Source of the DNA: Alopecurus myosuroides
Taxonomy: Eukaryota; Streptophyta; Magnoliopsida; Poales; Poaceae
Assembly (NCBI GenBank): GCA_028641055.1
Contig: CM054062.1
Coordinates: 141,402,682 to 141,466,681, forward strand
Length of the DNA stretch: 64,000 bases
Direction of reading: 5' to 3'
A program made the translations under genes and the position numbers. The notes beneath the pieces were generated by a model. It was given only the letters and a program-made list of their open reading frames with translations. It was not told where the DNA came from and did no database searches. Positions 18,765-64,000 of this stretch are shown here, piece after piece (the stretch's first letter is position 1; the number at the start of each line of letters is the position of its first letter).

Positions 18765-20170
18765 CGCCAATGCTGGTACATCACAACACCATGGTAGTTT
18801 AATTGACTGTGGAATGTTGCTAGAGGGTGTGAAATATGGAGTAGATTTTGTAGGGACATCCACAAATAATTTTACAGTTGTAATTGGCTAACGAGAAATG
18901 ACAGGTACACTTATTGTTATGCTAGATTATCAGGTCATGCCTGCTGTTTAGATACTTATGGTCTTTTGTTGTTACTAGATGGTGATAAAGGCAGCGAGTG
19001 GGTCATCATCACTATCAAAAAGGATGGTGGATTAGGTAGGCACAGAGGTCGTCAATGGGGAGTTTGTGGCCAAAAAGGTTGGTGGATTATCAGATCATGC
19101 CGGCCGTTTAGATATTTGTAGGTTAATTCAGCAATGACCTTCAGCTGTAGACTCAATGAGTTGTTAATTAGCGACGGTGATAAAGGAAACACAGGTTACA
19201 TGATGGTTAAGCTAGAAAACATTTACAAGAAATGTCAACTATGAGTACTTTTCTCCTCGTGTATCATATTAGTTAATTATGCAGCTCGTCTTACTTGATC
19301 ACGCATTACTTATTTCATTGACAGGATCTATCTCTTTGTTTCTCGAACCAACCTACTATTTGAACCATTCCATCTTGAAGTGTGCTACTAGATCTTGCTA
19401 AATATTTCGGTTGGAGGATTCCTCAAGTATAAGGTAGAAAAATATTGTTGTTGTGTAGGTATTGAGTTAAATCATTTATTAGTATCAGCAACTTCATATA
19501 ATTACGTATCGAGAATACAAAACTGAATTTTATCTGCATTTATTTAGATGTAGACATAATTTCTGTACATGTGTTATGTGGTTCACACTTCCATATGCTT
19601 GATCGCTTCCCTGAAGAATGTATTGTTTCTGTTTCACCTGTATCGCTACAGATCTAGGATGAAGGTGTATGGTATCTTGTTCTGATTTTCTTATCTGAAA
19701 ATAAGATTTGATTTGGATTAGATTGCATCATACAAGTCTCACCGTCTCCATAACACCAATTACATCATTTGTGTCTGGTTACCATTCGTGCCTAACAATG
19801 CTGCAAATTTATTAGTTTGACTAGGCATCATCATGTATGTACTGTATCATTTTTTGCATAGAATTAATGCCAACCTTTGGTTAACGTTACTTTTCTAAAT
19901 AAATTTTGGTTCAAGATGCCGTTTTGCCTGCTGTAATACCTTCGGCAAAGAAGAGTTCTGCTACCCCAAATATCTATAGCTCATGCATGTCTCTGATTAT
20001 TTCAATTCTCCAATATATTTGCTTTTCCTGTGAGATGTGAGCTATTTAGTATTTAATGCTAAAAGGCGGAAATATACACTTCTCCTATGTTCATGTCAAA
20101 CCCCTTGCACTAATAAAATTTTCTTGTGCGGGATCATTTTCCAATTTTAGTTTACTGTCTTCACATTATT

Positions 20171-21070
20171 TGATAGGGATATCATAGGGGTCCATGGTGA
20201 ATGTACATGCTTGAGCTGGAAGGAAATATGGAGCCTCACTGATGTTTATTATAAGGTGAATTCTTTCCTAATAATAAATAATGTTTGTGTTTATGAGAAT
20301 GTTATACTATCTAAGCCTATGAATTTATGTATGATTAGGTTTATTAATAACACAAACATGGATGGAGAAAAGGAATCAAGGAGCAAAGGAAGGAGGCATG
20401 GAAAACAACAACAAGGAAACAGTGTTTCAGTTCGGACTGGCAGGAGTCCCGAATTTGAAATAGTCATGGATTCTTCATACAGGATCCAAATACAGCAAAC
20501 GAGCACAATCCGATTAGGAAATTTGAAGAGCTTTCCAATGTATCCGTCCCCGTCAATAAATTCGACTCGTGCAAGCCGTGGTGGACGAAACAATCCACGA
20601 ATAGTTTTCTGCCAGTTTCCAAATGGAGTCCAATTGGCTGCACCCATGTTGGGTCAGTTTGTATCCGAGTTGGAGGAGTCCAAACGAGTAGGAATAGGTC
20701 AAATTTTGTGGTGAACATCCCCTCCCTCATATATAGCTACCACCTGCGTGTGGAATAGATTAGAACAAGTTTAAACCAAAACCAACAAAACCCCAACCTC
20801 TAGTGTGTATTGCTGCTAAGCATACTACTTGAAGTTTACCCTGCAAAGTTGCGTGATATCTTGTTATTCCATCTGGGAATAGGGGATACAGGACCACTTG
20901 TGATCTTTGATTACTTGTGCAAGAGTGTGTAGTTGAGAATATCCAAAGAGCTTGATTGTTGTTGCATCTGGCAACAAGGTTCTGCTAAGTGAGAGGTCTC
21001 AGTGTAGCACTAGTTATCCAATTATCAGAAAATACACAAAAAGAGAGAGAAGCTCATTGAGAAGATTGGG
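20171..21070 (+). repeat. E2 LTR copy A (+), truncated at its 3' end
   Basis: Starts TGATAGGG and is about 900 bp. It matches LTR C in inverse orientation but lacks the last ~16 bases (CCACCCCATATCA region). At about 21070-21072 it is joined directly to the minus-strand RT fragment. A decayed relative of the pol tail (VNSFL, CMIRFI) lies at about 20250-20345. Confidence 0.8.
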
Positions 21071-21072
21071 TC

Positions 21073-25674: not shown

Positions 25675-26573
25675 TGATATGGGGTGGCCCAATATTCTCA
25701 ATGAGGTTCTCTCTTTTTGTGGATTTTCTGATAATTGGATAACTAGTGCTACACTGAGACCTCTCACTTAGCAGACCCATGTTGCCAGATGAAACAACAA
25801 TCAATCTCTTTGGATATTCTCAACTACACACTCTTGCACAAGTAATCAAAGATCACAAGTGGTCCTGTATCCCCTATTCCCAGATGGAATAACAAGATAT
25901 CACGCAACTTTGCAGGGTAAACTTAAAGTAGTATGCTTAGCAGCAATACAAACTAGAGGCTAGGGTTTAGGTTTAAACTTGTTCAAATCTATTCCACGTG
26001 CAGGTGGTAGCTATATATGAGGGAGGGGATGTTCCCCACGAAATTTGACCTATTCCTACTCGTTTGGACTCCTCCAACTCGGATACAAACTGACCCAACA
26101 TGGGTGCAGCCAATTGGACTCTATTTGAAAACTGGCAGAAAACTATTTTTGGATTGTTTCGGTCACTGCGGCTTGCACGAGTCAAATTTATTGATGTGGC
26201 CGGATCCATTGGAAAGCTCTTCAAATTTCCTAATCGGATTGTGCTCGTTTTCTGTATTTGGATCCCGTATGAAGAATCCATGACTATTTAAAATTCGGGA
26301 CTCCTGCCAGTCCGAACTGAAACACTATTTCCTTGTTGTTTTCCATTCCTCCTTCCTTTGCTCCTTGCTTCCTCTTCTCCATCCATGTTTGTGTTATTAA
26401 TAAACCTAATCATACATAAATTCATAGGCTTAGGTATTATAACATTCTCATAAACACAAACATTATTTATTACTAGGAAAGAATTCACCTTATAATAAAC
26501 ATCAGTGAGGCTCCATATTTCCTTCCAGCTCAAGCATGTACATTCACCATGGACCCCTATGATATCCCTATCA
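25675..26573 (-). repeat. E2 LTR copy C (-), full length
   Basis: 899 bp from the minus-strand start TGATAGGG (26573) to CATATCA (25675). It is an inverse copy of A over A's whole length. It is followed, without a PBS, by the pol tail of copy B, so internal sequence was deleted between C and B. Confidence 0.8.
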
Positions 26574-26647
26574 AATAATGTGAAGACAATAAACTAAAAC
26601 TGGAAAATGATCCCGCATAAGAAAATTTTATTAGTGCAAGGGGTTTT
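26574..26647 (-). repeat. Inverted copy of left flank, part 1
   Basis: The inverse of about 20098-20170, nearly identical. Continues at 37331 after the E3 insertion; together the two parts copy 19664-20170. Confidence 0.9.
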
Positions 26648-27125
26648 GATGGGGAGATAATAACCCGGTAGGCCAATTCCATGGTATAACCCGGCCTAAA
26701 GGACGTTGTGCAGGATCCGGCTAAGGATAAAGGCGCTTCTGGAAGGCCCAAAGTTTGTAGGCTTCGTAATCCGGATTGTAGGTTGTGGTAAGGAAAGCTA
26801 GGGTTTGTAAGCGGTGTTCGGGTAGGACTCAAGTTGTGCCTTGGAGGGCAAGCCAAGTAGGGGTGCGGGTGTTTTATAAACCGGCTCCTAGGCTTAGTTT
26901 AAGAGAGATCCAAGTAGTAGTCATATCGCCGAATATCGAGTATCCATTGTACACAAAGAGATCGAGTTAATAAAGCGAGATTGGAGACTCGGCGACTTCA
27001 TCGCCGGCTACCAGATTGAATTCCATCATGCTTTCCTCTGAGCTAAACCCTCTCCCAAACGCCTGTGTCGACTTGCCCCAAGATCAGTTACCCCTGGTAA
27101 CATCTGCCGTGATCATCCCATGACA
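26648..27125 (+). repeat. E3 5' LTR (478 bp)
   Basis: Contains a probable TATA box TTTTATAAA (about 26872-26880) and a downstream AATAAAG (about 26967), the expected U3-R arrangement. It ends CCATGACA. Confidence 0.95.
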
Positions 27126-27127
27126 GT

Positions 27128-27145
27128 TGGCGCCCACCGTGGGGC
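27128..27145 (+). other. E3 primer-binding site
   Basis: TGGCGCCCACCGTGGGGC lies two bases after the LTR. It is the PBS type common in grass Tat elements; TGGCGCC matches the 3' end of tRNA-Asp, but I cannot fix the tRNA for the full length. Confidence 0.75.
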
Positions 27146-27189
27146 CTGCGTCCAAAGGTGTTTACATCACGGGAGAAGCTCGGAAAAGC

Positions 27190-30100
27190 ATGGGGAACCT
27201 CGTCGTCGGAGAGATCTACGACGACCACAAAGGAGAGAAGGTGGTGGACGACTCCGGCTGGGGGCCAGAATCGGATCACCTCGAATCCGGATCTGTCGTG
27301 ACAATCGGCGAGATCAACATCTTCGTCGGTATGGTACGTACGTTTGACTTAAAAGGAAAATATCATGTGCATGTTACAGGAACTTCTAGCAGGGATAAAG
27401 AAACACCAAAGCAAACGGTAAATTCGGCTCCCTCGGCCGTTCCGGGATACCTGAGATGGGCGGAACAGGAAGTAACGTGGAGCAGAAGGGATCACCCGGA
27501 AGGAATAGAACGCCCAGGAATCTTGGCGTTGGTGGTCGCACCGCAGGTCAATGGTTACGAGTTGAAAAAAGTCTTGATGGATGGGGGAAGCAGTATTAAC
27601 ATCTTGTATTGGGAAACCTTCTTACGCATGAACCTCAAAGAATCCCAGCTGCAGAAAAGTTCAACAGTTTTTCACGGAATTGTGCCGGGTCACTCAGCGC
27701 GCCCTGAGGGAAAAATCGCATTGGAGGTCGCTTTTGGAGAATCAGTGGATAATTATCGAGTTGAGTGGCTCACGTTTGAGGTGGTCAAGTTGCGTAGTCC
27801 TTATCATGCGTTGTTCGGAAGACCGGCCTACGCTCAGTTCATGGCCAGACCGTGTTACGTATATTTACAGCTAAAAATTCCGGGTCCTAAGCAGACCATC
27901 ACCATACAAGGAAGTAGGGATATAGCGGCCGAGTGTGATGAAGGAGATTCAGTGATGGCTGAGCAAGCTTGCAGAAAAGAAGAACTCAAGTATTACCGAT
28001 CCCAGGTGGATCCGGATGATGGAACAGCATTGAGAAGGCCGGATTCTGAGGATGAAAGAGTGAAATTCAAGGCAGCACAGGACACCAAGAAAGTAGATTT
28101 TGTTGAAGGTGATCCCACCAGGCAGTTTACTATAGGGTCTAATCTGAAAAGCGGGCAGGAAAGGGCGCTGGTGGAGTTCATTCGTTCTAATGCGGACGTA
28201 TTCGCTTGGACACCCAGCGACATGCCGGGTATCCCTACGGAGTTGGCGGAGCATAGTTTGCATGTAGATCCCAAAGCCAGGCCCGTGAAGCAGGGCTTGA
28301 GAAAGATGAATGAGGAAAGAAGGAAAGCAATAGGCGAAGAAATTGCGCGGCTATTAACAGCAGGCTTCATCATGGAAGTGTTCCACCCGGATTGGCTGGC
28401 AAATCCGGTTCTAGTAATGAAAAAGACCAACGAGTGGAGGATGTGCATCGATTTCACAAGTCTCAACAAGCATTGCCCGAAGGATCCGTTCGCACTACCA
28501 AGGATAGACCAAATAATAGACGCAGTAGCTGGGAGCGACTTGCTGTGCTTCCTGGACGCATATTCGGGATATCATCAGATTAAACTCAAAAGGGAGGATT
28601 GGGAGAAAACATCGTTCATAACCCCTTTTGGAGCCTTCTGCTACAAAACAATGACGTTTGGACTGAAGAACGCAGGCGCAACCTACCAACGGTGCATTCA
28701 GAAGTGCTTCGAAGACCAAATTGGACACAATGTCCATGCTTACGTGGATGACGTGGTTGTCAAGACCAGGAAGGCAGAGACATTTATAGACGATCTAAAG
28801 GAGACGTTCAAAAATCTAAGGAGATATCAGATGAAGCTCAACCCGACAAAATGCGTATTTGGGGTTCCAGCTGGGAAGTTACTCGGCTTTATCGTTTCCG
28901 AGAGAGGAATTGAGGCAAACCCGGACAAGATCAAAGCTATCCAAAGTCTGAGAAAGCCGGAAAATCTGAAACAGGTCCAAAAGCTTACGGGCTGCGTAGC
29001 AGCCTTGAGCCGGTTTATATCCAGGTTGGGAGAAAAGGCAATGCCCCTGTACCGGCTCTTGAGGAAATCCGACAAATTCGTATGGGATCAAGAGGCGGAT
29101 GAGGCGTTCGAGGCACTAAAAAAGCAGTTATCTGAAGCGCCAGTATTAGCAGCCCCGGGCCCTAAAGAACCTATGTTGTTATATGTTGCGGCTGGCCCCA
29201 AAGCCGTCAGTGCAGTAGTGGTCGTGGAACGCAAAGAGGACGGAAAGGATTATCCGGTTCAGAGGCCGGTTTACTATGTCAGCGAGGTATTGTCTGAGGC
29301 GAAACAGCGTTACCCGCATTGGCAGAAGCTGGTTTTCGGGGTCTTCATGGCCAGCCGGAAACTAAAGCCGTACTTCCAGGAGCACCCTATAACAGTAGTT
29401 AGCTCAATACCAATGGCGGATATCATCAGAAACTCGGATGCAACCAGAAGAATAGCCAAATGGGCAATAGAGATGGGGGACTATCACATCAGCTACGAGC
29501 CTAGGTCGGCAATCAAATCACAGGCCTTGGTGGACTTTGTCAATGATTGGACACACACAGGCATGGCTACCATAGTTCCAAACTCCGAGTCATGGATCAT
29601 GCATTTCGACGGATCGAAACAGTACGAGGGTTCAGGAGCTGGAGTAGTGCTAACGTCACCCAAAGGAGACAAGTTGAGTTATGTATTACAGATTCACTTT
29701 GATTGTTCCAACAATGTAGCCGAGTACGAGGCCCTATTGCATGGCTTAAAAATAGCTAAGGAGATGAACATCAGGAGGATACGATGCTTTGGAGATTCGG
29801 ATCTTGTGGTACAACAGGTATCAGGAACTTGGGATAGAAAGGATGCAACTATGGCAGCATACCGCAGAGAGGTCGATAGGGTAGCCGGATGTTTTTCCGG
29901 GTATGAGGTGGAACATATAGACAGGAGAAAGAATGAGGCAGCCGACGCCCTAGCCAGACTCGGCTCGCGCAGAGAACCGGTTCCACCTAACGTATTTTTG
30001 GACGAATTATGGCGACCATCAGTTAAAACAGAGTCTGAGGAAGAGCTAGCAAATCAAGACCCGGGCTTGGAGCTCGTGGCCACTGTACCCGCTATTCCCG

Positions 30101-31383
30101 AGTGGACAGAACCTTTTTTGGCCTACCTATCACGAGGCGAGTTGCCGCAGCAGGAGGTATTGGCGAGGCAAATTTTGCGACGAGCAAAGGGATATTCTAT
30201 TATTAATGGGGAGTTATATAAGAGAAGCGCCACGGGGGTCTTCCTGCGCTGTGTGGCACCAGAGGAAGGCCGACAGATCCTCAAGGAGATTCATGAAGGC
30301 GATTGTGGGCATCACGCGTCTACAAGGTCACTTGTGGCCAAGGCTTATCGACACGGGTTTTTCTGGCTCACGGCTCTGGCAGATGCGGAACGATTGGTAG
30401 CAAGGTGTGACGGATGTCAAAGGTACGCCCGCCAAATCCACGTACCGGCTATGGAATTACGGACCATCCCGCTAACTTGGCCGTTCGCCGTCTGGGGTAT
30501 GGACATGGTTGGCCCCTTTCATATGTCACCTTGCAAAAAGACACACCTGTTGGTAGCTGTCGATAAGTTTACCAAGTGGGTAGAAGTTATGCCAGTCACT
30601 AATTGTGAAGCAGCTACAGCAGTCAAGTTCCTGAAAAGAATTATCTATCGGTTCGGGTACCCTCACAGCATAATCACCGACAACGGAACCAACATGTCCC
30701 TTGGCGAGATGGAGAAGTTCTGTGGTAACAACGGAATCCGGCTTGACGTAGCATCGGTAGCTCATCCACAGGCCAGTGGACAAGTAGAAAGGGCGAATCA
30801 AGAACTGCTTCGCGGACTAAAGCCACGTCTACGAGTCCCCTGTATCAGGGCTGCTGGAGCATGGGTCGATGAACTTCCTGCTGTGGTTTGGGGTATCAAT
30901 ACAACACCTAACAGATCCACTCAAATGACGCCGTTCTTCATGGTATATGGCGCGGAGGCAGTGTTACCGAGTGACATTATTCATGATTCACCGCGAGTGT
31001 CAGCTTACGTTGAAGTGGAGAACGAAAAGAGCCGGCAGGACGCCGTGGATATGTTAGAAGAACAAAGGGAACAAGCTCTGGAAAGATCAGCAATATATCA
31101 GCAGGATCTACGGAGGTATCACAGCCGGCGTGTGAAAACCCGGGTCTTCCAGGAAGGAGACCTAGTTCTGCATCTGGTTCAGTCAAACGAAGGAAAACAC
31201 AAGTTATCACCACCATGGGAAGGACCATTTATCATAATCAAGAACTTGCACAATGGATCATATTACTTGGTAGACGCAAGGGAAGAGTCGGCCACGGTTA
31301 ATGACACCGCTCATACCACTTCGTCTATGCGAGAAAGAGACAGAACGTGGAACGTGGCCCAGCTACGCCCGTATTATACTTAG
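27190..31383 (+). CDS. pol: E3 pol: protease, RT, degenerate RNase H, archaeal-type RNase H, integrase (intact, no gag)
   Basis: An uninterrupted frame of about 1397 residues. The frame is open back to the PBS (27127), but the first ATG is 27190 (MGNLVVGEIYDD). Order: about 130 pre-protease residues (PGYLRWAEQ, GILALVVAPQVNGYEL); protease with MDGGSSINIL (D at 27580); RT with HAYVDDVVV (28741-28752); a first RNase H-like segment lacking the usual catalytic Asp (LLYVAAGPKAVSAVVV), as is typical when it becomes a connection domain; an archaeal-type RNase H (MHFDGSKQYEGSGAG at about 29600, AEYEALLHGL, CFGDSDLVVQQV, ADALARLGS); and integrase with GDCGHHA...CDGCQ, D at 30502 and 30679, and E at 30787 (D-35-E). 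It ends RPYYT. No stop or frameshift is present. Gag capsid and zinc knuckle are missing, so particles would need Gag in trans. Confidence 0.95.
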   Translation: MGNLVVGEIYDDHKGEKVVDDSGWGPESDHLESGSVVTIGEINIFVGMVRTFDLKGKYHVHVTGTSSRDKETPKQTVNSAPSAVPGYLRWAEQEVTWSRRDHPEGIERPGILALVVAPQVNGYELKKVLMDGGSSINILYWETFLRMNLKESQLQKSSTVFHGIVPGHSARPEGKIALEVAFGESVDNYRVEWLTFEVVKLRSPYHALFGRPAYAQFMARPCYVYLQLKIPGPKQTITIQGSRDIAAECDEGDSVMAEQACRKEELKYYRSQVDPDDGTALRRPDSEDERVKFKAAQDTKKVDFVEGDPTRQFTIGSNLKSGQERALVEFIRSNADVFAWTPSDMPGIPTELAEHSLHVDPKARPVKQGLRKMNEERRKAIGEEIARLLTAGFIMEVFHPDWLANPVLVMKKTNEWRMCIDFTSLNKHCPKDPFALPRIDQIIDAVAGSDLLCFLDAYSGYHQIKLKREDWEKTSFITPFGAFCYKTMTFGLKNAGATYQRCIQKCFEDQIGHNVHAYVDDVVVKTRKAETFIDDLKETFKNLRRYQMKLNPTKCVFGVPAGKLLGFIVSERGIEANPDKIKAIQSLRKPENLKQVQKLTGCVAALSRFISRLGEKAMPLYRLLRKSDKFVWDQEADEAFEALKKQLSEAPVLAAPGPKEPMLLYVAAGPKAVSAVVVVERKEDGKDYPVQRPVYYVSEVLSEAKQRYPHWQKLVFGVFMASRKLKPYFQEHPITVVSSIPMADIIRNSDATRRIAKWAIEMGDYHISYEPRSAIKSQALVDFVNDWTHTGMATIVPNSESWIMHFDGSKQYEGSGAGVVLTSPKGDKLSYVLQIHFDCSNNVAEYEALLHGLKIAKEMNIRRIRCFGDSDLVVQQVSGTWDRKDATMAAYRREVDRVAGCFSGYEVEHIDRRKNEAADALARLGSRREPVPPNVFLDELWRPSVKTESEEELANQDPGLELVATVPAIPEWTEPFLAYLSRGELPQQEVLARQILRRAKGYSIINGELYKRSATGVFLRCVAPEEGRQILKEIHEGDCGHHASTRSLVAKAYRHGFFWLTALADAERLVARCDGCQRYARQIHVPAMELRTIPLTWPFAVWGMDMVGPFHMSPCKKTHLLVAVDKFTKWVEVMPVTNCEAATAVKFLKRIIYRFGYPHSIITDNGTNMSLGEMEKFCGNNGIRLDVASVAHPQASGQVERANQELLRGLKPRLRVPCIRAAGAWVDELPAVVWGINTTPNRSTQMTPFFMVYGAEAVLPSDIIHDSPRVSAYVEVENEKSRQDAVDMLEEQREQALERSAIYQQDLRRYHSRRVKTRVFQEGDLVLHLVQSNEGKHKLSPPWEGPFIIIKNLHNGSYYLVDAREESATVNDTAHTTSSMRERDRTWNVAQLRPYYT

Positions 31384-32538
31384 CAAGGATCACATTGGCA
31401 CGTGGAATTAAATGATGTAACAGGCAGCAGGTTTCAGACGCACTCTTTTCCTATCCAGGGCACCCTTGGGGACCGGACGGGTTTTTAATGAGGCGGCTTG
31501 CTGACCTAATTTTTCATATCAAATAAAGAGGTGATTATCGAGAATAGAGGTGATTATAAATTGAGTCTTATACTTTCAGCATGATGCGTATATCTAGGTC
31601 TTGAGGGCTGGTTGCTTGGATAAGCGCAGTTGCAAACTCAAAAGACCCGGCCTCGATGCCTATGAGTTATAAGGGCCGATTACTCGCAAACGAGTACGGC
31701 TGCAATCTTATAATCGGACAAAGAAGTCCAAATTTCTTGGCTATTCTTACTTAAGCTCGATGTGACTCGCACTAAAGTGGCATGATTTGTTCGCTTACGA
31801 TTACAGGCAGCCATGAAGCCCAATGGGACTTGCCTGACCTCGTTTTCGTATAGATGTAATAACATGGTATCCACGCGAAAGCCGGCTTACATTACAAGAT
31901 AGTCAAAAGGGTCATCTAAACCACAAGTTATGTAGAGTACAAGGCTAATAGCCGGAAACTCAATGATTATTAAGCATAACTTCAAACCCCATGTGAAACG
32001 ACTCTGGGGCCTTTGCGAATTTAGCAGTAGGCAATTTGTTCTCCTCCAAAAAATCACGTGCCCTAGACCCGGAAGACCGGGTCAGGGGGACTTGGGTCTT
32101 GGAAGGGAAAAATTGCTTAGTTGTTTAATTTCCAACAAACCCAAACATCCGGGTCTTGGGGACTTGGGGACTTAGAAGCAAGTCCGCTTGACAAACACCC
32201 ATATAACCCGGATGCCGAGTCTCACAAAGGGAAAAATAAAGAATGTTGGATATCAAGAAAAAAGAAAGTTGCATATCAAAAGTAAAAGAATTTCGGATAT
32301 CAAGAACAAAGAAAGTTGCATATCAAGGATAAAGAAGGTTGGATATCAAGAGCAAACGAGTTCAAAAGTAGATAGATTTCAGCCAGAAGAGGCACAAGGC
32401 GCATCAGGAGCTTAGAGTGCATTACAAAATTTCACCAAAGAGTATCAAAGGCGCACAAGCGCACCATTCAAATAATAATTGTTTCAACGGCACATCAGCC
32501 GACTAACGAGTACGAAGTGGCAGATATTACTCGGTACT
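31384..32538. other. E3 convergent spacer between pol and the antisense gene
   Basis: Non-coding; pol ends at its left edge and the minus-strand gene ends at its right edge, so it holds both 3'-UTRs. An AATAAAG at about 31521 is a possible poly(A) signal for the sense transcript. A minisatellite lies at 32246-32360. Confidence 0.75.
32246..32360. repeat. 23-bp minisatellite, five copies
   Basis: Unit close to TTGGATATCAAGAACAAAG plus AAAG. Copies start at 32246, 32269, 32292, 32316 and 32339, with GGATATC and GCATATC alternating. Confidence 0.85.
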
Positions 32539-35500
32539 CTAGGCCGCCGGGTCCATCTTGGCCTTACCCTTGCCGTCACTTAGGGTAGCAGCCCTACTCG
32601 GATCAGTAGCACCGCCGGCTCGCGCTGGTGGAGGGACGATAGGTGTTGAGGTAGCGGGCGCAGAGTCGGCTTCAGCCTTCTTGTGTGCAGCTTCTTCTCG
32701 CATCTTGGCAACGTCTTCCTTCCATCGGGCAAGCATATCGAATGGCTTGGGGCGATCTGCTTTAATGACTTTGTCGTTAGCATCATATGCAGGAAGAATA
32801 GTGTCAATGACCAGGCTATCGGCGATCACACTGGCCGGGTGACGAACTTCCTTTTCAATGGCTTTGAAATCCTTCGGCGAAAACTTGGACCCGTCCTGAT
32901 TGAACTCCGGAAACCCGGCTATCATTTTGGCCGGTTCTAGCTTTGGAACATAAGCTTTAGCCAGGGCGAGTCCCCGGGTTACCCCAAAACGGCAGGATGA
33001 GCGCTTCCAATGCCAAATCCATTCAGGAATGGTGGAGCAGGCCTCCAGCAACTTTTTCATGCTACCCGGCGCAACGCACGGCAGTCGAAGCTCATCAAGA
33101 ATCCATCCAACGCCGGCGCCAAGTTGCCGGATAGTATCTTTAATCAGTTGCAGTTTGGCGGTATCATCTTCTTCTTCAGGGGCAGCTTCACCCGGACCTG
33201 TTGAAAAGCAAGGAAAGTAACGAGTAAGAAATCCGGTTATCCAACCAAATGAAACATGGGTCATAATCGCCAAGGTTCAGAAATTGTACCAGTTGCGACG
33301 CGATAGATATCAGCAATCTGCACTGAAAGAGTCGCCAGCCTATCTTCAGCTATATGAGCCCTTTTTCTGTATTTCCTTGTGATTTTTCCGCTTCTACGCG
33401 CTTCAGCTTCCGCTGCTTCGCGCAGAGCGGTCTCCTTCTCAATACGTTTGGCAGCTTTGGCCAGTTTCTTCTCAGATTGCGCAGCAAAGTCCTAGATGGA
33501 TAACACAAGGAAAAAGGGTTAATTGGAGCCATTGCATAAAGTTCCAAGCAAATCAATCAGTAATTCACTCGGAACTTGGGGACTATACAAGGATGCAGAT
33601 GGTATTACTCGGGCTTACCTTGTGCTTGGTTATCAAGGCGTCTAAAATATTTTCTTCGTCGGACCTCAAGGTGTAGAGGGCGTCAAGAATTTGGGCAAAC
33701 GTCATGTCTTCAGGACGAAGTCGTGAAGGACCGGCAGATTGGTCTTCTGGTTGAAGGAGTTTTTCGGCTTTTGGGGTCGAAACCCGGATCGTCTGGGTAT
33801 CCGGGTTAGGAGAGCCCGGCTTGGTCTCTAAGATAATGTCCTCATCTACCTCTTCAGAGGATTTGGGGGATGCGGTCTTCGGCTTAGCTGGGTCCTTGAA
33901 GGGGTCTTGTTCTTGCACGTCCTCAACCTCGTCGTCAGCTTCAACATTCGTGTTGATGTGCGGCTCCTCCCCGCCTTGCCTTTTTGCTTCAGGAATTTCC
34001 AGGTCATCAGTGGTCACTTGGGCGCTAAAAGGGGAAAAAGGAAAGAGTGGTCAGTAGTACATATCAAAGAGTTAACAAGTGTAAAAGGATATCAAGTAAA
34101 ACACCTTTACCCGGTGTTTATGGCATAATCCGGCGGGAGCTCGCTGCTGGAGGCGGACGAAGTTGTCAATGGTACCGGCTGCGGTACCCGGAATTGCCCC
34201 GCGCGTGGGTGGTTAGGAGATGGATGGCGCTGAGGTGGAGGAATGTTGGCTCGGTGAGCAGGGGAAGTGGGGATACCCGGGTTAAGGGGATTGTCCCCCG
34301 GGGAACTCCGGGTTACCCTGCGCTTAGCCGAGAGGAGATCCTTCAAGAGTGGTGAGTGTGACAACCGGTCGTTAAGGATGCGCATAGTTTCGAAGGAGTA
34401 AGGCTCAGAAGACATGAAGGAGAAAGGAACCTTTGCAATCACCCCTCTGGCTTTCCTCTTGTTTCCGACTGTGACTTCCTGGTCGGATTCGGTGGCCTCC
34501 GGGTCATCCTCTTCTTTTTCTTCCTCGTCCTCCAACCCTGAAAGTCGAGTATGTATCAGACAAGAAGAAATATGGGCGATAGGAAAGTAGTATAGGTAAA
34601 AGGCTAATGTAAGATTTGGGAAAGCACCTTCGTCGTCATCGGCCGGTTCGTCCTCTACTTCTGGGTCTTTGGACGGGGGGGAGGTTTCGATCCTCCAGAA
34701 GGGATCTTCAGCCTATGATTGAGGAGATGAAAGCAGAAGTCATAGGCAGTATCAAGTTAAAGTATTGAAATAAGTTGTGGGGACCGGGTCTTACTGCTGG
34801 AGCCGGGTTTTCTCGAGTGAATGGGGGTAACCCGGCGATATTCCTTATCACCTCTAGCTTCTCTGTCAGGAAGCCTTTGATGGTCTTGATGGTGTCGCCG
34901 GTTGCGAAGTTCTTAGTGGAATATCGGAGCGCGTCTGTGGTGTGCCCAGAGTACTCGTGCATCAACTTGGAGCGAATGGAGTTGGGTTGGATCCAGAAAT
35001 CCACCCAGGTCTTCACCAAGTTGAGCCCAAGAAGGCCTTGGGCCGAGAAGACAGCCAACTTAGCCAGCAAAGGCTGGATCGCCTCCCTGTCCGAGTCAGG
35101 GGCAAAGGCGCTGAAAGATTCAGAAGGCTCGAGGAGACTCTCCGAGTAACCCGGTAGCTTCCTTTCGCCGTCCGGGGAGGTATCATGGCAATAAAAGAAA
35201 GACAATTGCCAGTTTTTGACGTGGGAGTTTAAGTTGAGAGTTGGCATTAGTGAGTGCTTGCGGCGCTGGATGGATACCCCGCCGCAAGTAAGAAGTGTTC
35301 CGTTACTGCTTTCGCAGCACGGCTTGCACTGGAATAGTTCAACAAAAAGGGTCAAACTTGGCGGAACGCACAAGTATGATTCCGATAGAACGATGAAGTG
35401 GGTAATATTTAGCATAGAATTGGGCCCTATGTCAAATACCCGGAGACCGTAGTAGTTTAAGACCTCTCGGAAGAAAGGGTGACCCGGAGGACGGAATCCC

Positions 35501-35724
35501 CGGGTCACGTGCTCAATGGAGCAAATTACCTCACTGTCGGCAGGAGTGGGACGGGTCTCGTCGCCTGGTGCTCTCCAGTGTATGTCCTTCTGAGCGGGGA
35601 GGATTCCTAATTCGGCCAGCTCGTCCAACTTGGCCTTTGTTACTATGGATCGACCCCAATTGGCTGATATGGCTTGGGTAGTCTTTACCGGAGTCGGCTG
35701 TTTCCCTTGCCTTTTTGGAGCCAT
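32539..35724 (-). CDS. E3 antisense accessory gene, six coding exons, Transposase_28-like N-terminal region (intact)
   Basis: Minus-strand exons: 35724-34795 (within exon 35733-34795), 34712-34628, 34537-34111, 34024-33619, 33491-33290 and 33197-32539 (stop TAG 32541-32539). Lengths sum to 2709 nt, about 902 residues. Each intron starts GT and ends AG, with phases 0, 1, 2, 0, 1, and no exon has an in-frame stop. Exon 1 (GFRPPGHPFFREVLNYYGLR, FDIGPNSMLNITHFIVLSES, LFQCKPC) resembles the 'putative gypsy type transposon' family PF04195. Exons 2-4 are acidic and Pro/Ser-rich, with KRKARGVIAKVPFSFMSSEP and a conserved PEDMTFAQILDALYTLRSDE block. Exon 5 is a charged probable coiled coil. Exon 6 has TIPEWIWHWKRSSCRFGVTR and a Lys-rich tail. 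Function unknown. Extra ORFs of this kind are known in Tat elements; the exon map here is my reading, supported by the same junctions in E4. Confidence 0.85.
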
Positions 35725-36248
35725 GGGGTTAACCTGCAAAACGCGAGGAAAAGAGGTGCAGGAAATAAGACTCGGAAGTGTTGGATTACCCGAGTTTCAA
35801 ATATTCGGAAAGTGTGAAGACTAAAGATATCTGGGTAACGCATCCCGGAGCACAGATTGCGAGGTGTCCGGGTATCGAGTACGGCTGTGGAAATCATTGG
35901 TCACTTACGTGTTGAGGTGAGTTTGGGGCGCACGGATGATTGCCCATGTCTCTACTGCAAGCAAAATAACTGGAAAAGGAGGATTTTCCGGGTGTTAATG
36001 ATACGCGCGGAAGTTTGGACGAAATGGATCTAGGTTAGGAGAACTCGCGAGTGATTTTACGAAGAAATTGGAGATTAATGGCGGTAGGGGGTGGTATGAG
36101 ATCATCCAACAAGTTATTGAAGGAGCTAGCAAGTATCTAAGCGGTTTAAATCAACGCGGTAAGAACAACGGCTCGCGGATCGACCTAGATCCAATCTGGA
36201 GTGAATCTAGAAATTGCAAGGCCAAATTGCTGGGTGCGAGAAGCTTAC

Positions 36249-36480
36249 CAGAGGGGATCGGAGTAACGCGTGGCGGCGGTGAATAGCGTGATAAAAATGC
36301 TCCTTTGTGATTGCCGGCCAGACACTCGCAGATGCGTCGGTAAGGGTCGACGGCGGCGCGGGACCAATTGCAGCGGAGCGCGGCCTGCGATAGGATGGAT
36401 CCAAAGACGAGCGCAGGGTTTCTGTGGTGGTGCTCCATGGGTTCGAGCACGGAAGCGAAGAGAAGAAGGAGGAGAAATGA
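36249..36480 (-). other. E3 antisense gene: non-coding leader exon
   Basis: Transcription should start about 30 bases below the TATA box (near 36480). The leader runs to a donor CTCTG|GTAAGC with GT at 36248-36247, and splices to the acceptor TTTTGCAG|GTTAAC at 35733, nine bases before the ATG (35724). An upstream ATG is present in this exon but is not conserved in E4. The first intron would be about 515 bp. Confidence 0.65.
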
Positions 36481-36510
36481 GCCGTTGGGATTAGGTTAAC
36501 CCCTAAGTGC

Positions 36511-36520
36511 TTATTTATAG
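36511..36520 (-). promoter_or_regulatory. E3 antisense gene TATA box
   Basis: CTATAAATAA on the minus strand, with CACACTC just upstream. The equivalent position in E4 has CTATAAATAG, and the downstream AACGGCTCATTTCTCC segment is shared, so the promoter is conserved in both copies. Confidence 0.8.
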
Positions 36521-36851
36521 AGTGTGACACGATAAGCCTAGGCAGCGGGCGAAATCCGGGAATTGCGGATAAAACGTGTCTGCCCGGATTTTTCGAGATA
36601 TACGTTAAATGTTAGACGAGATTTCCGGGATGGATGTGACCTAAATCTCTTCCGTGATTACCGGATCGGAAAAACGAGTAATGGGTTTGGAGAAAAGCCG
36701 GGTTGCTATGTGGCCACCATGGAGTTAGGCCTAGTTGTTTATCAAAGCAACCTAACCCGGCCCCAGTGAAGTGGTGAGTTTGGTATTTTTGCAGGGAATA
36801 GCGTGCGCTTCAAAGAAAATCTCGAGAAGCCCAAGCTATTCTGGGGACTAC

Positions 36852-37330
36852 TGATGGGGAGATAATAACCCGGTAGGCCAATTCCATGGTATAACCCGGC
36901 CCAAAGGACGTTGTGCAGGATCCGGCTAAGGATAAAGGCGCTTCTGGAAGGCCCAAAGTTTGTAGGATTCGTAATCCGGATTGTAGGTTGTGGTAAGGAA
37001 AGCTAGGGTTTGTAAGCGGTGTTCGGGTAGGACTCAAGTTGTGCCTTGGAGGGCAAGCCAAGTAGGGGTGCGGGTGTTTTATAAACCGGCTCCTAGGCTT
37101 AGTTTAAGAGAGATCCAAGTAGTAGTCATATCGCCGAATATCGAGTATCCATTGTACACAAAGAGATCGAGTTAATAAAGCGAGATTGGAGACTCGGCGA
37201 CTTCATCGCCGGCTACCAGATTGAATTCCATCATGCTTTCCTCTGAGCTAAACCCTCTCCCAAACGCCTGTGTCGACTTTCCCCAAGATCAGTTACCCCT
37301 GGTAACATCTGCCGTGATCATCCCACGACA
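36852..37330 (+). repeat. E3 3' LTR (479 bp)
   Basis: Preceded by the purine-rich TGGGGACTAC that serves as PPT. Nearly identical to the 5' LTR. Ends CCACGACA, followed by the TSD GGTTT. Confidence 0.95.
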
Positions 37331-37767
37331 GGTTTAACATGAACATAGGAGAAGTTTATATTTCCGCCTTTTAGCAGTAAATACTAAATAGCTCATATCT
37401 CACAGGAAAAGCAAATATATTGGAGAATTGAAATAATCAGAGACATGCATGAGCTATAGATATTTGGGGTAGCAGAACTCTTCTTTGCCGAAGGTATTAC
37501 AACAGGCAAAACGGCATCTTGAACCAAAATTAATTTAGAAAAGTAACGTTAACCAAAGGTAGGTATTAATTCTATGCAAAAAATGATACAGTACATACAT
37601 TATGATGCCTAGTCAAACTAATAAATTTGCAGCATTGTTAGGCACGAATGGTAACCAGACACAACTGATGCAATTGGTGTTATGGAGACGGTGAGACTTG
37701 TATGATGCAATCTAATCCAAATCAAATCTTATTTTCAGATAAGAAAATCAGAACAAGATACCATACA
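37331..37767 (-). repeat. Inverted copy of left flank, part 2
   Basis: Inverse of 19664 to about 20102, roughly 98% identical by eye. At 37764-37767 it meets the inverted LTR start, with the shared bases GGTG (minus strand) at the join. Confidence 0.9.
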
Positions 37768-37794
37768 CCATGGACCCCTATGATATCCCTATCA
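37766..37794 (-). repeat. E2 right terminus: ~29 bp of inverted LTR start
   Basis: The exact inverse of the first 29 bases of LTR A, followed by TSD TTATT. The rest of an LTR is missing here. Confidence 0.85.
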
Positions 37795-40690: not shown

Positions 40691-43599
40691 TAATAGGCTA
40701 GATAAACTGTTTTATTTCTAGCTCAATTTTTTGAAAGTGTGCATGTGCACTGATGCTACATTTGGTGTGTAATAACTCGGCTTTCTTGCTAGGTTATGCA
40801 AAAAAATCCGGGTTACCTTTTATTCATAATTTTGCAACTTCTTTATTTGGTAATAGAAAACTTATTTGACTTGGTTTATCTTTGCTATCTAGCTCAGCCG
40901 GTTTATCACATGACTTATTCTAGTGTTTCTAACTCTGGCGAGTTCAGGGTCATAATAACCCGGTTTTGCCAGGTTATAACATCATTGACTCGCCCAGATT
41001 AAACATCTAGGTCGTAAAAATTGCGTGTAACCATTGAATGATAGGCAAGTATAACCAATATAATTTGTCTTATGCCAGATTCTTGAGATATAAACTATGT
41101 TCTAGCATCAGCCCCCAAGTAATCATATAAGAAAAGTTTAACTTCCTGTGACAATGATGACAATGATAAATTTCTGGAACAAACTTCAATAACTCAGATT
41201 TTCCAGGTATGTCCTTTATTACAATGATAACATAGTGATTACAATGATCCTATGTGTAATATGGCCTTAACCGGGCTATATTCCAAGGTCTTCCAGTTTC
41301 TTCCTCAGATGTTCGTGATTTATCACCATCACGCATATCAATGAGGTAATATGACCCGTTGTGTAGTTTCCTTCTTACCACAAACGGTCCTTCCCATGAT
41401 AGGCTTAGCTTGTGTATCCCATCCTTTTTCTGGACCAGGCGTAACACTAAGTCTCATTCCTGAAAACTTTGAGTTTTAATCATGTGGCTATGATAGCGAC
41501 GCAAGTCCTGCTGGTATACGGCTGACCTGGATGCTGCGAGTTCGTGTGCTTCTTCCAAAGCATCAAGCGAGTCTTGACGAGCTATCTCATTCTGGGTTTC
41601 CACATAAGCAGCTACTCTTGGTGAATCGTGACAAATATCACTTGGTAAAACTGCCTCAACTCCATAAACCAGAAAAAACGGTGTGTAACCCGTTGACCTG
41701 TTTGGGGTAGTTCGTATGCTCCACAAAACAACAGTTAACTCTTCAACCCAGCAAACTGCAGTTTTTTCTAAAGGAACTTGGAGCCTAGGTTTAATACATT
41801 TCAGTATTTCTTGGTTAGCTCGTTCTGCTTGTCCATTAGACTGTGGTTGTGCCACTAAAGCAAGGTCAAGTCTTATATGATTCTGGTCACAGAACTTTTG
41901 CATTGCTCCTTCTGAAAAGTTTGTCCAATTGTCTGTTATAATGCTATGTGTGTAACCAAACCTGGAAATCAGTTTTTTCAAAAACTTGACTGCCGTAACC
42001 GCGTCACATTTACTGATTGGTTTTGCTTCTACTCACTTTGTAATTTTTTCAACTGCTACCAATAAGTGAGTCTTTTTATTAGACGACTTTTTGAAAGGTC
42101 CCACCATGTCTAGCCCCCAGACTGCGAATGGCCAGGTTATGGGAATCATGCGCAGATCCTGAGCTGGCATATGATCCTGCCTTGCATACCTCTCACACCC
42201 TTCACATATTCGTACTATTTGTTCTGCATCAGCATTGACAGTTAGCGAGAAAAATCCAAGTCTGAAAGCTTTATTCACCAAAGATCTCGAACTTGCATGG
42301 TGACCACAATCTCCTGAATGGATTTCATTCAAAATATGACACCCTTCTCTGGAGCATCGCATCGCTGAAAAATTTCAGTTGCACTTCGCTTGTATAAATC
42401 AACGTTGATGATTGTATATGACTTCAATCGTCTTATAACCTGGCGGGCGATAACCTCGTCCTGCGGGAGCTTGCCCCTTGTGAGATAAGCCAGATATGGT
42501 TCAGTACACTCTGGAATTGTGTGTAGAGCAGCTACCAGTTCTTACTCAGGATCCGAATTTGGCAAATCTTTTTCTGTAGGAACTTTTACTGACGGGCAAT
42601 GGATTTCATCCAAAAAGACGTTGGGTGGAACCTGTTTTTTCTGAGAACCTAGACGAGACAATGCATCGGTTACTTCATTGAGACGTCGATCAATATGGTC
42701 AACTTGATATCCCTGAAAATGTCCTGCCAGGAGGGTAACTGCTCGTCTATAAGCTGCCATAACTGGGTCTTTAGAATCCCAGGTTCCTGTAACCTGTTGA
42801 GAAACAATGTGTGAATCTCCCAAACATCGAATCCGGGTTATACTCATCTCCTTTGCGATTCGAAGCCCATGAAGCAAAGCCTCATATTCTGATGCATTAT
42901 TAGTGCATTTAAACGAAATTTGTAGGACATATCGAAATTTATCACCTCTTGGGGATGTTAAAACTACACCAACTCCTGACTCTTCCACTTGTCGTGACCT
43001 ATCAAAATCCATGGTCCAATATTTAGTGTCTGGCTTATCTGGTGGGACTTGTAACTGTGTCTAGTCATTGATAAACTCGATGAGTGCTTGAGTCTTGATA
43101 GCAGTTCTTGGTTCATACTTGATGTGATATGGCCCCATCTCAGTAGCCCACTTTGCAACTCTCCCGGTTGCTTCCCTATTCTGAATAATATCAGACACAG
43201 GTGCTGAACTGACCATAGTAATGGGATGTTCTTGAAAGTAATGTTTCAATTTTCAATTAGCCATGAACACCCCGAAAACCAATTTTTGTCAGTGTGGGTA
43301 CCGTTGTTTTGACTCTGTCAAGATCTCGCTCACATAGTAAACCGGCCGCTGTACTAGACCCTCCTTTCCTTCCAGTTTACGTTTCACAACCACAACTGCA
43401 CTTACAACCCTATTGTTGGCAGCACTATATAATAACATGGGCTCTTTTTTCTCAGGTGCAGCCAATATAGGTGCGTTGGAAAGTTGTTTTTTCAAGGCCT
43501 CCAATGCCTCATATGCTTCTTGATTCCAAACGAAATTGTCAGTTTTCTTCAAAAGCCGGTATAAAGGTATGGTTTTTTCACCCAGTCTGCTTATGAACC
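40691..43599 (-). mobile_element. E5: Tat-type Gypsy fragment
   Basis: Minus-strand element cut on the left by the Helitron-like end and on the right by E4. It contains the C-terminal two-thirds of pol and about 550 bp of 3' sequence (40691-41249) with scattered CCGGGTTA-like motifs but no gene. Confidence 0.8.
41250..43599 (-). pseudogene. pol: E5 pol fragment: RT end, RNase H regions, integrase, decayed
   Basis: Homologous to the last ~850 residues of the E3 pol. From 43599 downward: end of RT (LKKTDNFVWNQEAYEALEAL), the connection-type RNase H (SAANNRVVSAVVVV), the archaeal-type RNase H (MDFDRSRQVEESGVGVV, where the catalytic Asp segment FDGS reads FDRS), integrase zinc region (GDCGHHASSRSLVNKA, CEGCERYARQ), a first catalytic Asp in GLDMVGPF, DNWTNFSEGA (usual DNGT) and QAERANQE. 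It ends RPYYT at 41250. Stops or frame changes occur near 43255, 43060, 42540, 42365, 42030 and 41450. It is upstream-truncated because E4 inserted within it. Non-functional. Confidence 0.9.
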
Positions 43600-44087
43600 T
43601 GTCGTGGGATAATCACGGCAGACGTTACCGGGGGTAACTTGTCTTGGGGCAAATTTACTCTGGTGTTTGGGAGAGGGTTTAGCTCAAGGAAAACCATGGT
43701 GATATGCGATCTGGTAGCCGGCAATCAAGTCGCCGAGTCTACGATCTGAATATACTATCTCGATACTCGTGTTACAATGGATACTCGATACTTCACAATC
43801 TCTATCTCGTAAACTTGTGTCTCTTGTGAACTCGTCGATCTAACCCTAGGGGCCGGCTTATATAACCCCCGGATCCCCTGGCTTGCTATCCAAGGCGTAC
43901 TCGGAATCCTACCCGGACACTACTTACAAAACCCTAAACTTCCTTATCAGAACCCACAATCCGGGTTACGAGGCCTACACTCCTGGGCCTTCTAGAAGCT
44001 CCTTTTCCCTAAGCCGGGTCTTGCGCATCGTCCTTTGGGCCGAGTTAATCCTTGGCGTTAGCATACTGGGTTATCATCCCTCCATCA
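43600..44087 (-). repeat. E4 3' LTR (488 bp)
   Basis: Minus strand: starts TGATGGAGGGATAACCCAG (44087) and ends CCCACGACA (43600). Diverged relative of the E3 LTR. The preceding CTCGGGACTAC is the PPT equivalent. Confidence 0.9.
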
Positions 44088-44474
44088 GTAGTCCCGAGAA
44101 TAGTTTGGGCTTCACGGAATCCTCCTTGAAGCGCATGTTATTCCCTACAAAAATAACAAACATACAAATTCATAGAGGCCGGGTTAAGTTGCTTTAATAA
44201 CAGCTAGGCCTAACTCCATCGGTGGTCCATATAATAACCCGGTTTCCTCTGAATCCATCCTTTACTTTTCCGGGTCAATGCCCTGATGAGAATGCCAAAG
44301 ATCCAGCTTATTTCACTCGTTAATTGGTCCAGATATCGCGGAAGAGATTTGCTTCCTGTCCATTCCGGATATCTCGTCCAGTACTTAACGCGTATCCCAA
44401 AAAATCAGGACGGGTATCTCTTATCCCGAAATTTTCGGTTCCCGCTCGCCGGCCTAGGTTTCCCCACCCGCATC

Positions 44475-44482
44475 TATAAATA
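44475..44482 (+). promoter_or_regulatory. E4 antisense gene TATA box
   Basis: TATAAATA in the context CATCTATAAATAGACG, about 30 bases before AACGGCTCATTTCTCC, which is shared with E3. Confidence 0.8.
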
Positions 44483-44506
44483 GACGCGCTAGGGGGTAAC
44501 CTAGCT

Positions 44507-44753
44507 TAACGGCTCATTTCTCCCATCTCCTTCTTCCTCACCAGTGCTTCCTCGTCCGAGCTCACAGAGCGCCACCACGGAGACCTCGTGCACGCCGCCG
44601 GAGCAAAGCCGCCGCAAGCTACGCTCTTCCACGGCTCGCCCCGCGCCGCCGCCAATCTCCACCGCCGCGCCCTTGACCTGCCCGCCGGGAGTCGCAAGGG
44701 GACATCACGACTGCGCCATCTGCCGCCGTCGCGCCCTTCTCCAACCCACACCG
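44507..44753 (+). other. E4 antisense gene: non-coding leader exon
   Basis: GC- and pyrimidine-rich leader without an ATG. It ends at donor CACCG|GTAAGCTTCTC, the same donor sequence and position as in E3. It splices to TTTTGCAG|ACC at 45274. Confidence 0.65.
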
Positions 44754-45282
44754 GTAAGCTTCTCACTTTCATTGATTCAACTTCTAATTTCTCCGTTTGA
44801 ACTAGATTGGATCTAGGTCCGCCGCGAGTCATCTCTTACTTCACGCCGGATTAGGTCGCATAGCTCCATCCTAAATCGTCCAATCGCTTAATAGATGACC
44901 ACACATCGCTCCCCTATCGCTTGTAACCATTAATTTCTCGACGAAATCATCCACAAATTTTCCAATCTGGATGCAGGTCGCCCAAACTTCCGCGGCTGCT
45001 CTTGATACCCGGAAAATCCACCACTTCCGGTTCTTTTACTTGCACTAGACATAGGCAATCAACCTTTTTTCATAACTGCCTGTCGATACGTAGATATCCC
45101 ATAATTTTTGTACTGCTCGTCAATACCCGGGTAGTTTGTAATTTTTGCTCTGTCTAGTGATACCCGGACAATTCATAGTTTCCACGCCTCTTACTGATAC
45201 CGCTTGTGAATACTCGGATAGCTCATGATTTCCGAGTCTTAATGTTTCGTGCATTTTGCTTTGTATTTTGCAGACCGTACCA

Positions 45283-47177
45283 ATGGCTCCTAGGAACAAA
45301 GGGAAGCAGCCGGCAAAAACAAGGACGACCCAGTCCATATCTCCCAATTGGGCGCGGTCTTCCGTGACCCAGGCCAAACTGGAAGAACTGGCCGAGTCAG
45401 GCATCCTCCCTCCTCAGAAGGAGATTCATTGGAGGGTACCGGGTGATGAGACCCGGCCTACCCCCAATCCCGACGAGGTAATATGCTTTGTCGAGCACGT
45501 GATCCGGGGGTTTCGCCCCCCGGGTCACTCTTTCTTCCGTGAAGTCCTCAGCCACTATGGCCTCCGGGTGTTCGACATAGGGCCTAACTCTATGTTGAAC
45601 ATAACCCAATTTATAGTCCTCTGCGAGTCTTACTTGTGCATCCCGCCAAATTTGGTTTTATTTATCGAGCTCTTCCAATGCAAACCGTGCCACGAAAGCG
45701 GTGACGGGGCTCTTTTGGCCTGCGGCGGGGTTTCCATCCAACGCCGCAAAAATTCCCCCATGCCGACTCTAAACCTAAACTCACATGTTAAGCACTGGCA
45801 GCTTTCCTTCTTTTATTGTCGGGACACCTCCCCACCCGGCGAGAGGAAGTTGCCGGGTTACTCGGAGGGTCTCTTAGATCTTTCCGATACTTTTAATGCC
45901 TTTCCCCCTGAGTCGGACAGGAAAGCCATCCAGCCCCACCTGGCCAGAATAGCCGTCCTTTTCGCCCACGGTCTCGCTGGGCTCAACCTGGTTAAGAGTT
46001 GGGTAGATTTCCGAATCCAACCCAACTCTATTCGCTCAAAGCTAATGTGCGAATAGTCGGGACACGTCACGGACGCGCTCCGCTATTCCTCGAAAAATTA
46101 CCCGGCCGGCGATACCAACAAGACTATCAAGAGCTTCCTGACTGAGAAGCTGGAGGTGATCAAGAACATAGCCGGGTTAGCGCCGTTCACCCGGGATAAC
46201 CCGGCTCCAGCGGTAAAATCCGATACTTATCCACTTATTCCCGTACTTCGACTTGATACAACCACTAACTTTCATTTTCATGTTTTATCTTAGGCCGACA
46301 ATGTTTTCTGGAGCATTGAGACCCCTCCCAACTCCGGGAACCCGGAGGAAGAAGAAGAAGAACTGGCCGACACCGACGAAGGTATCACCCGGATTCCAAT
46401 CACCTCAACCTCTGTTACTTTGCTTTCCCATTTTTTCTCTTTTTCCAACTATATGCTTGCACCTTTCAGGGATGGATGATAAGGGTGACAAGGACGACCA
46501 GGGAGACCCGGAAGAGACTGAGAGCGACAAGAGCGAGATTGAGCCGGAAGTCGAGGTCGGAACCAAGAGGAAAACCCGCGGGGTCGTCTTCAAGGTTCCC
46601 TACTCTTCCATGTCCTCCAAACCCTACTCTTTTGATAATATGCGCGAACTTAACCGACAGTTATCAAATTCACCACACTTGAAGGATCCGCCTCCGACCA
46701 AGTGCAGAGTAACCCGGAATTCCCCGGGCGAGGATCCCCTCAACCCGGGTATTCCTACGTCCCCGGCTCGTCGTACTGGTATTTCTCCATCTCATCCCAT
46801 CAACTCACCTCAAAAACATCCTTCCCCCAATCATCCATTAGCCGGACAGATCCGGGTCTCACTCTCGGATTCTGTGACAGCCTCATCCACGTCTAGCAGC
46901 TCGCTTCCGGCAGATTTCGTGGTGAATGCCGGGTAAATCATATTTCCGGCTAAGCAATACTCTAGTCCTTTTGATAACCTTCAATTTTCGTTGCTAATCT
47001 CTTCTCTTTTCTTTCCTTAGAGCCCAGGTCACGATCAGTGACCCGGATATTATGGACACGGACAACCGGGAGACGGAGGGGCCGACTGATGATATGGACG
47101 CCACGACTGGCGGTGGTGTTGAAAACAACCAGGAGCAAGACCCCTTGGCTGACTCGGCTCGGCAGGAAGCCGGGTCT
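45283..47177 (+). pseudogene. E4 antisense accessory gene, exons 1 to 4 (5' part), broken
   Basis: Exons: 45283-46212 (ATG at 45283), 46294-46381, 46470-46932, and 47021-47177 up to the E6 insertion. Exon 1 is 930 nt to the donor, exactly as in E3. Phases 0, 1 and 2 at the first three junctions equal those of E3, although exons 2 and 3 differ in length. The protein is clearly homologous to E3 (FRPPGH, FDIGPNSMLNIT, KRKTRGVVFKVP). It carries an in-frame TAG at 46054-46056 where E3 has Tyr (LMHEYSGH). The damage lies in the first coding exon, so no full protein can be made. Confidence 0.85.
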
Positions 47178-62979: not shown

Positions 62980-62984
62980 GGTCT

Positions 62985-64000
62985 CCCAAGCCATCTAAAG
63001 AGGCTGAGGACGACGATGTCGAGATCCTGGACACAAGGATGGGCTCTCCCAATCCGGACACCCAGACAATCCGGGTCTCGACCCCAAAGTCGGAGAAGGT
63101 TCGCCCACCGGGTGATCAAGCTGCCGACTCTTCCGGTGTCAGGCCCGAAGATATGACTTTTCCCCAGATGCTTGACGCCCTGCACACCTTGAGGGCTGAT
63201 GAAGAAAATATCCTAGAAGCTTTGATAGCCAAACATGAGGTAAATCCGAATAACATTGCCTGTATCCTTGTCTAGTCCCCAAGTTCCAAGTGAACTTATT
63301 GATAATTTGCTTGGAACTTTCTAGTATATCCGACTGATAGCTTGCTTTTTATCCGGCTAATCCTTCCTTGTGTCTTCACGCAGGCCTTCGTGACCCACTC
63401 TGAGAAAGCATTGGCGAAGGCCACCAAGCTCCTCGAGAAGGAGGCGACTCTGCGTGAGTCGGCTGAAGCTGATGCCAAGAGGAGCGGGAAAATCACAAGG
63501 AAATATAGAAGGAGGGCTCATGCAGCAGAAGATGAACTGACCAAGCTTTCCGTTCAGATTGCCGACACATATCGTGCTTTGACCGGTATGATTCCTAACT
63601 TGACAATTATAACCCGGATTCTCATTCTGATAAATAGTCGGATTTCCTTACTTACTGCTTTTTCCTATTTTCTGCAGGTCCGGATGATGTAACTCCGGAC
63701 GAAGATGATGTCGCAAAGCTGAAAACCATCAAGAGCACGATCCGGCAGCTCTGTGCCGGAACCAAATGGATCCTTCAGGATCTGAAGTGGCCGGGTGTCG
63801 GGCATGGCAACCTGAAGACGCTGCTTGACGCGTGCTCCATTATCCCCGAGTGGATTGAGCATTGGAGACGCTCGTCCTGCCGGGTTGGAGTAACCCGGGG
63901 GCTTGCGCTGGCTAAGGCGTATTTTCCCAAACTCGAGCCGGCCAAGCTTGTAGGCGGGTTTCCGGAGTTCAACCACGACGGGTCCAGGTTCTCAGTGAAG
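62985..64000 (+). pseudogene. E4 antisense accessory gene, exons 4 (rest) to 6 (partial)
   Basis: Resumes in the same frame as at 47177. Exon 4 runs to 63239 (donor GAG|GTAAAT), exon 5 is 63384-63585 (202 nt, the same length as in E3), and exon 6 starts at 63678 and is open to the window end. Motifs shared with E3: GSPNPDTQTIRVSTPK, RPEDMTF, LDALHTLRADEENIL, SGKITRKYR, IPEWI.HW, SCR.GVTRGLALAKAY. The reading frame is intact in this part; the copy is disabled by the TAG at 46054 and by E6. Confidence 0.85.

Follow-up and report, generated by a model that had tools for sequence, protein, structure and literature searches.

The question raised by this locus is whether the strand opposite pol in an LTR retroelement carries a genuine multi-exon gene and, if so, how its introns survive the passage of the element through RNA. 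In this study, we address it in a window of 64,000 nucleotides (the whole stretch of DNA analysed) from Alopecurus myosuroides, which contains the element E3 and part of an older, diverged copy, E4. The spliced antisense frame of E3 is open, its codons are under constraint and its splice sites are conserved, and no intronless copy is present among those examined. We consider it very probable, on the evidence of the sequence, that the antisense strand of E3 carries a real multi-exon gene with a TATA box outside the LTR, a spliced leader and a TRP28 protein of 902 residues as its product.

The host element and the antisense gene model

E3 is bounded by two plus-strand LTRs of 479 bp, the 5' LTR (TG...CA) at 26647..27125 and the 3' LTR at 36852..37330. 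The pair shows 4 differences in 479 bases, which at a rate of 1.3e-8 gives an age of ~0.32 My and bears out the prediction that the host Gypsy element is young. The 5-bp TSD GGTTT lies just before the 5' LTR (26642-26646) and just after the 3' LTR (37331-37335); paired LTRs and a TSD are features by which Retand elements are recognised, a TSD of 5 bp being usual for plant LTR elements (PMC11963269). The pol ORF (27127..31383, plus strand) encodes RT, RNase H, a second RNase H (RVT_3) and then integrase. RVT_3 occupies 827-944, between RT_RNaseH (to 786) and Integrase_H2C2 (from 1046), and a second RNase H between RH and integrase marks the Tat clade, Ogre/Retand type (PMC6317226), to which E3 belongs on this feature. 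The domain search found no gag domain in the pol ORF, and pol directly adjoins the 5' LTR in E3, as it does in all five other copies (of 39) whose 5' part was examined; with the LTR followed by pol, E3 lacks the gag of an autonomous Retand element, a point absent from the original prediction. A tandem repeat (23 bp x 4.9 copies, 32238..32351, unstranded) separates pol from the antisense gene, and the position of that gene, with its TRP28 domain (PF04195), between pol and the 3' LTR is again as in Retand elements. These features mark E3 as a young Ty3/gypsy element of Retand type that is without gag.

The original prediction placed on the minus strand of E3 a gene of six coding exons and about 902 codons, and every coordinate of that model was confirmed on checking. 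The spliced frame comprises 2709 nt (902 codons and TAG). Coding exon 1 (35724-34795, 310 codons) is followed by exon 2 (34712-34628), exon 3 (34537-34111), exon 4 (34024-33619), exon 5 (33491-33290) and exon 6 (33197-32539), all on the minus strand; the frame, including exons 2 and 4, is joined across introns of 82, 90, 86, 127 and 92 bases, each GT-AG. The T content is 35.4% in introns (leader introns included) and 20.0% in coding exons.

Upstream, a TATA box, CTATAAATA, is found at 36520-36512 (minus strand) in the internal region, ~330 bases from the 3' LTR. Its ATAAATA is present in 37 of the 39 other genomic copies described below, and the box is kept in E4; the TATA box is the evidence on which we name a candidate promoter belonging to the antisense gene itself. 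Retroviral negative-sense promoters are described within the 3' LTR (PMC10186651), whereas the TATA box of E3 stands outside it. The leader exon (36249..36490, minus strand; the start is approximate, being placed from the TATA box) has a donor after 36249 that can join the acceptor before 35733 either directly, through a 515-base intron, or via a possible second leader exon at 35954-35909 (minus strand), with an in-frame ATG at 35947. The latter has its AG, GT and ATG in all but one of the 37 close copies, but is poorly conserved in E4; either route may be used. The gene had been called intact, which holds for the open spliced frame of 902 codons and is less true of the leader, since an out-of-frame upstream ATG lies there in E3 that is absent from all 37 comparable copies, so that translation from the E3 copy may be weakened.

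PF04195 (Transposase_28, TRP28) had been proposed as the profile to search, and a match at residues 67-134, within exon 1, bears this out (E=1.5e-20; 73.6 bits, cut-off 26.2). Further along, the protein has an acidic segment (301-360), clusters of basic residues, among them KRKAR at 365, and a charged, proline-free stretch (601-660). Exon 3 runs from acidic through basic (KRKAR) to proline-rich sequence, and exon 5, charged and without proline, is coiled-coil-like as judged by eye only. Exon 6 matched no Pfam model with an E-value of 1 or less. Structures predicted with AlphaFold were too poor to use both for exon 1 (7 sequences, mean pLDDT 38.9) and for exon 6 (3 sequences, 42.5).

The surroundings of E3 are rich in other repeats. 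A large inverted repeat (19664-21074 and 25685-37769, 94-97% identical) contains E3 within one of its arms, and the two arms resemble oppositely oriented copies of a single older element. Another LTR element probably occupies 1-12999, where there are direct repeats of 2.75 kb (98.9%), one of them at the edge of the window, and ORFs for gag and pol at 4297-8462. Minus-strand ORFs at 14270-16437 match Transposase_21 (tnp2) and a transposase-associated domain, indicating a DNA transposon remnant, which we take to be of the CACTA type.

Constraint on the frame and on the splice sites

A longest-frame scan, in which no more than five GT-AG introns were allowed (70-150 bases each), gave a best spliced frame of 976 codons on the antisense strand, against 403 on the sense strand and 338 without introns; as the scan maximises length, the figure of 976 overshoots and differs from the 902-codon model. 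In 60 dinucleotide shuffles the best spliced frame reached 271-499 codons. The idea that unrelated open stretches line up by chance, for which we found nothing in favour, is countered by this shuffle control, by the frame-specific constraint against E4 and by the genomic copies, and its probability is vanishingly small.

The older copy E4 is interrupted by a nested element and truncated where the window ends, and the two plus-strand pieces of its antisense gene were aligned separately, the first from the promoter side to exon 4 (44258..47177) and the second covering the rest of exon 4, exon 5 and part of exon 6 (62981..64000). Out of 903 codons, 726 could be paired with E3 and 723 were used, exon 4 contributing 74 and exon 6 103. 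These 723 codons gave pN 0.168, pS 0.609 and dN/dS 0.15, with per-exon dN/dS of 0.11-0.29 across the six exons and one in-frame stop in E4. In the parts compared, the lengths of all six exon indels are multiples of three, as are those of 2 of 11 indels in coding introns, and the splice dinucleotides GT and AG are kept at all six introns, the leader counted as one. The pN/pS of the antisense gene (0.276) resembles that of pol (0.266) compared with the pol remnant on the E4 side (784 codons, 6 stops left out, 9 overlap codons counted twice), a likeness that is only rough since the pol pS of 0.80 is saturated, and the remnant may belong to another element. Across 41454-44258 the order on the E4 side is antisense gene, LTR, pol remnant, which suggests that recombination has left two elements with a single LTR in common. 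The nested element (47178-62980), which sits inside exon 4 of the E4 gene, has unusually long direct repeats (~6.1 kb, 99% identical) and is flanked by GGTCT; the sole stop-free stretch of at least 200 codons that touches it crosses its right end.

The genome measures 3.57 Gb, with numbered contigs (C1-C7) of several hundred megabases each; the search in it scored the best 40 of 12153 candidates, E3 and the 39 copies closest to it in exon 1 (at least 97%). Homology extends over the whole antisense gene in 37 of the 39; the other two diverge from exon 3 on, and only their leader and introns 1-2 were therefore judged. No intron is missing from any of the 37 whole-gene copies, the largest gap amounting to 7% of the leader intron. 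Their coding introns are GT-AG throughout, except for intron 3 (GT in 36), and the leader intron has GT in 37 and AG in 36. A stop, a frameshift or at least 60 missing bases disrupt the spliced frame in 24 of the 39 copies, and the frame of the remaining 15, which have none of these, is open. Multiples of three make up 24 of 112 exon indels (three copies account for 75 of the 112) and 3 of 38 indels in coding introns. With indels mostly frameshifting and frames broken, most copies are, to judge from their sequence, decaying like old insertions. Among the 16 open-frame copies including E3, the 120 pairs give a mean pN of 0.0137, a pS of 0.0538 and an intron difference of 0.036, a ratio limited by the choice of open frames and by the counting of related pairs; when all 39 copies are pooled and compared with E3, the two non-homologous tails included, pN/pS is weaker (0.48).

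Proposed passage of the introns through the RNA stage

The retention of the introns had been explained by their orientation, and the argument is sound. In the sense RNA of E3 the introns would be reverse-complemented and so escape recognition by the spliceosome; because they would stay unspliced, each new copy would inherit them. The antisense mRNA would be spliced and translated, would be without what copying needs, and would not be copied back. In keeping with this, intronless copies number 0 of 37, and a 43-base word across the exon 1-exon 2 junction, which probes that junction only and copies close to E3 there, has no site genome-wide at up to 3 mismatches, as against 147 sites for a 42-base word across the exon 1-intron 1 boundary at the same tolerance (reversed controls, 0). 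From the indel pattern and the splice sites kept in E4, and from the introns kept in the copies, we infer that the antisense strand is probably transcribed and spliced in vivo.

Ogre and EVADE are also plant LTR elements with introns (PMC12786077); in these it is the element's own transcript that is alternatively spliced to subgenomic RNAs, whereas the introns of E3 are on the antisense strand. The passages of PMC12786077 and PMC7765848 available to us contain no antisense gene with introns. HBZ of HTLV-1 is likewise a spliced antisense gene in a retroelement, though the likeness is one of analogy only (PMC2099442, PMC6237760).

Relation to Retand TRP28 genes and possible function

The original prediction that such a gene is far beyond what an LTR element needs goes too far. 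According to the available text of PMC11963269, antisense TRP28 ORFs are found in 97% of Retand clusters (all but two of 63), which makes an antisense PF04195 gene regular in this lineage, and PMC7264820 reports for gene23 of the maize element Grande its own promoter and a nuclear protein. The two clusters that lack TRP28, both from Helianthus (PMC11963269), indicate that it is not indispensable. From its domain and position, the E3 gene belongs to a kind already known, the TRP28 (PF04195) accessory genes that Retand elements carry in antisense. E3 is close to the gag-less A. myosuroides clusters 7a-c (PMC11963269) in its LTR (479 against 477-481), its internal region (9726 against 9671-9685) and its pol-3' LTR interval (5468 against 5427-5433), and in having an antisense PF04195 gene and no gag. 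It differs in its short tandem array, none being given for those clusters in the available text, and in the six-exon gene that we deduce, where PMC11963269 presents ORFs. By its description in PMC7264820, gene23 is similarly antisense and located between pol and the 3' LTR; the promoter and nuclear protein just cited are those of gene23. What is added here is that the gene is built of several exons, that this structure is conserved and that the junction probe has no match. The structure seems to be little described: the word 'intron' does not appear in the available text of PMC11963269 and PMC7264820, and an earlier description in the primary papers on Grande gene23 or on the extra ORFs of gypsy elements is possible. 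PMC7264820 itself calls for work on antisense and spliced transcripts.

Relatives of the joined protein bear on how the exons should be read. Two protein searches, one over the best 7995 candidates by shared words, gave five wheat proteins with PF04195; residues 600-860 had no relative among the best 7996 candidates so chosen, and exon 1 had none in the IMG/VR and GTDB contigs scanned. Exon 6 is homologous to the C-terminus of wheat P0004, with a score of 161 (1000 shuffles: mean 33, sd 5.1, maximum 60). At the position of intron 5, P0004 proceeds towards its exon 6 match and P0005 runs into other residues, a difference that, as read from the proteins, fits a spliced and an unspliced model of one site.

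It could be argued that the antisense strand holds several separate small ORFs that are never spliced, since exons 1, 3, 4 and 6 are separate ORFs in a mechanical listing and the ORFs of PMC11963269 were predicted with ORF Finder. Against E4, however, frame-breaking indels account for 9 of 11 in coding introns and none of six in exons, the GT-AG sites are kept and the introns are T-rich; moreover, all four aligned wheat proteins cross junction 1 ungapped and P0004 is a single protein with both TRP28 and the exon 6 region, which leaves separate ORFs with a very low probability. Scarcely more probable is a recent capture of a host gene, which introns and a promoter of its own would resemble: the gene is present in E3, in E4, in at least 39 other copies and among wheat PF04195 proteins, and the available text of PMC11963269 reports no similarity to TRP28 outside TEs. 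We therefore reject recent capture; an ancient one may have occurred. Somewhat less improbable, and still unlikely, is that the antisense transcript acts as RNA (dsRNA, siRNA or transcriptional interference) and that the protein is incidental. The layout implies convergent sense and antisense transcription, and the dsRNA idea has been raised in PMC7264820, but the amino-acid constraint in all six exons, the third-position excess and the in-frame exon indels against E4 speak for a protein, to which an RNA role may be added.

Under the preferred reading of a spliced, protein-coding gene, the product is probably nuclear, given its TRP28 domain, acidic segment, basic clusters and charged, proline-free stretch; DNA binding is predicted for TRP28 (PMC11963269). 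Its likeliest function, put forward as a tentative suggestion, would be that of a DNA- or chromatin-associated accessory protein that regulates the expression or integration of the element, with preference for its own. Table 1 of PMC11963269 has eight rows with GAG NO, all eight with TRP28 YES (the text counts nine), and the retention of the gene where gag has been lost suggests that the protein benefits its own element; the gag of gag-less elements would have to come from elsewhere. A case, which nevertheless falls short of even odds, can be made that grass Retand elements have ancestrally carried a complete, intron-rich antisense gene through RNA with no loss of introns, thanks to its strand, that its product is a nuclear factor with a preference for cis and is kept more strictly than gag, and that at least intron 5 predates the split between the families of E3 and of the wheat sequences.

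Where ORFs are surveyed unspliced, genes of this kind show up as separate antisense ORFs, and both their short exons and the way the exons are joined would be overlooked. Should the spliced model be correct, TRP28 proteins would be far larger, with a conserved C-terminal region that has no Pfam match, and searches for the function of TRP28 would best be done with the joined protein. If it is true, the antisense gene of E3 would also offer a clean example, found in nature, of a cargo with introns that crosses the RNA stage intact.
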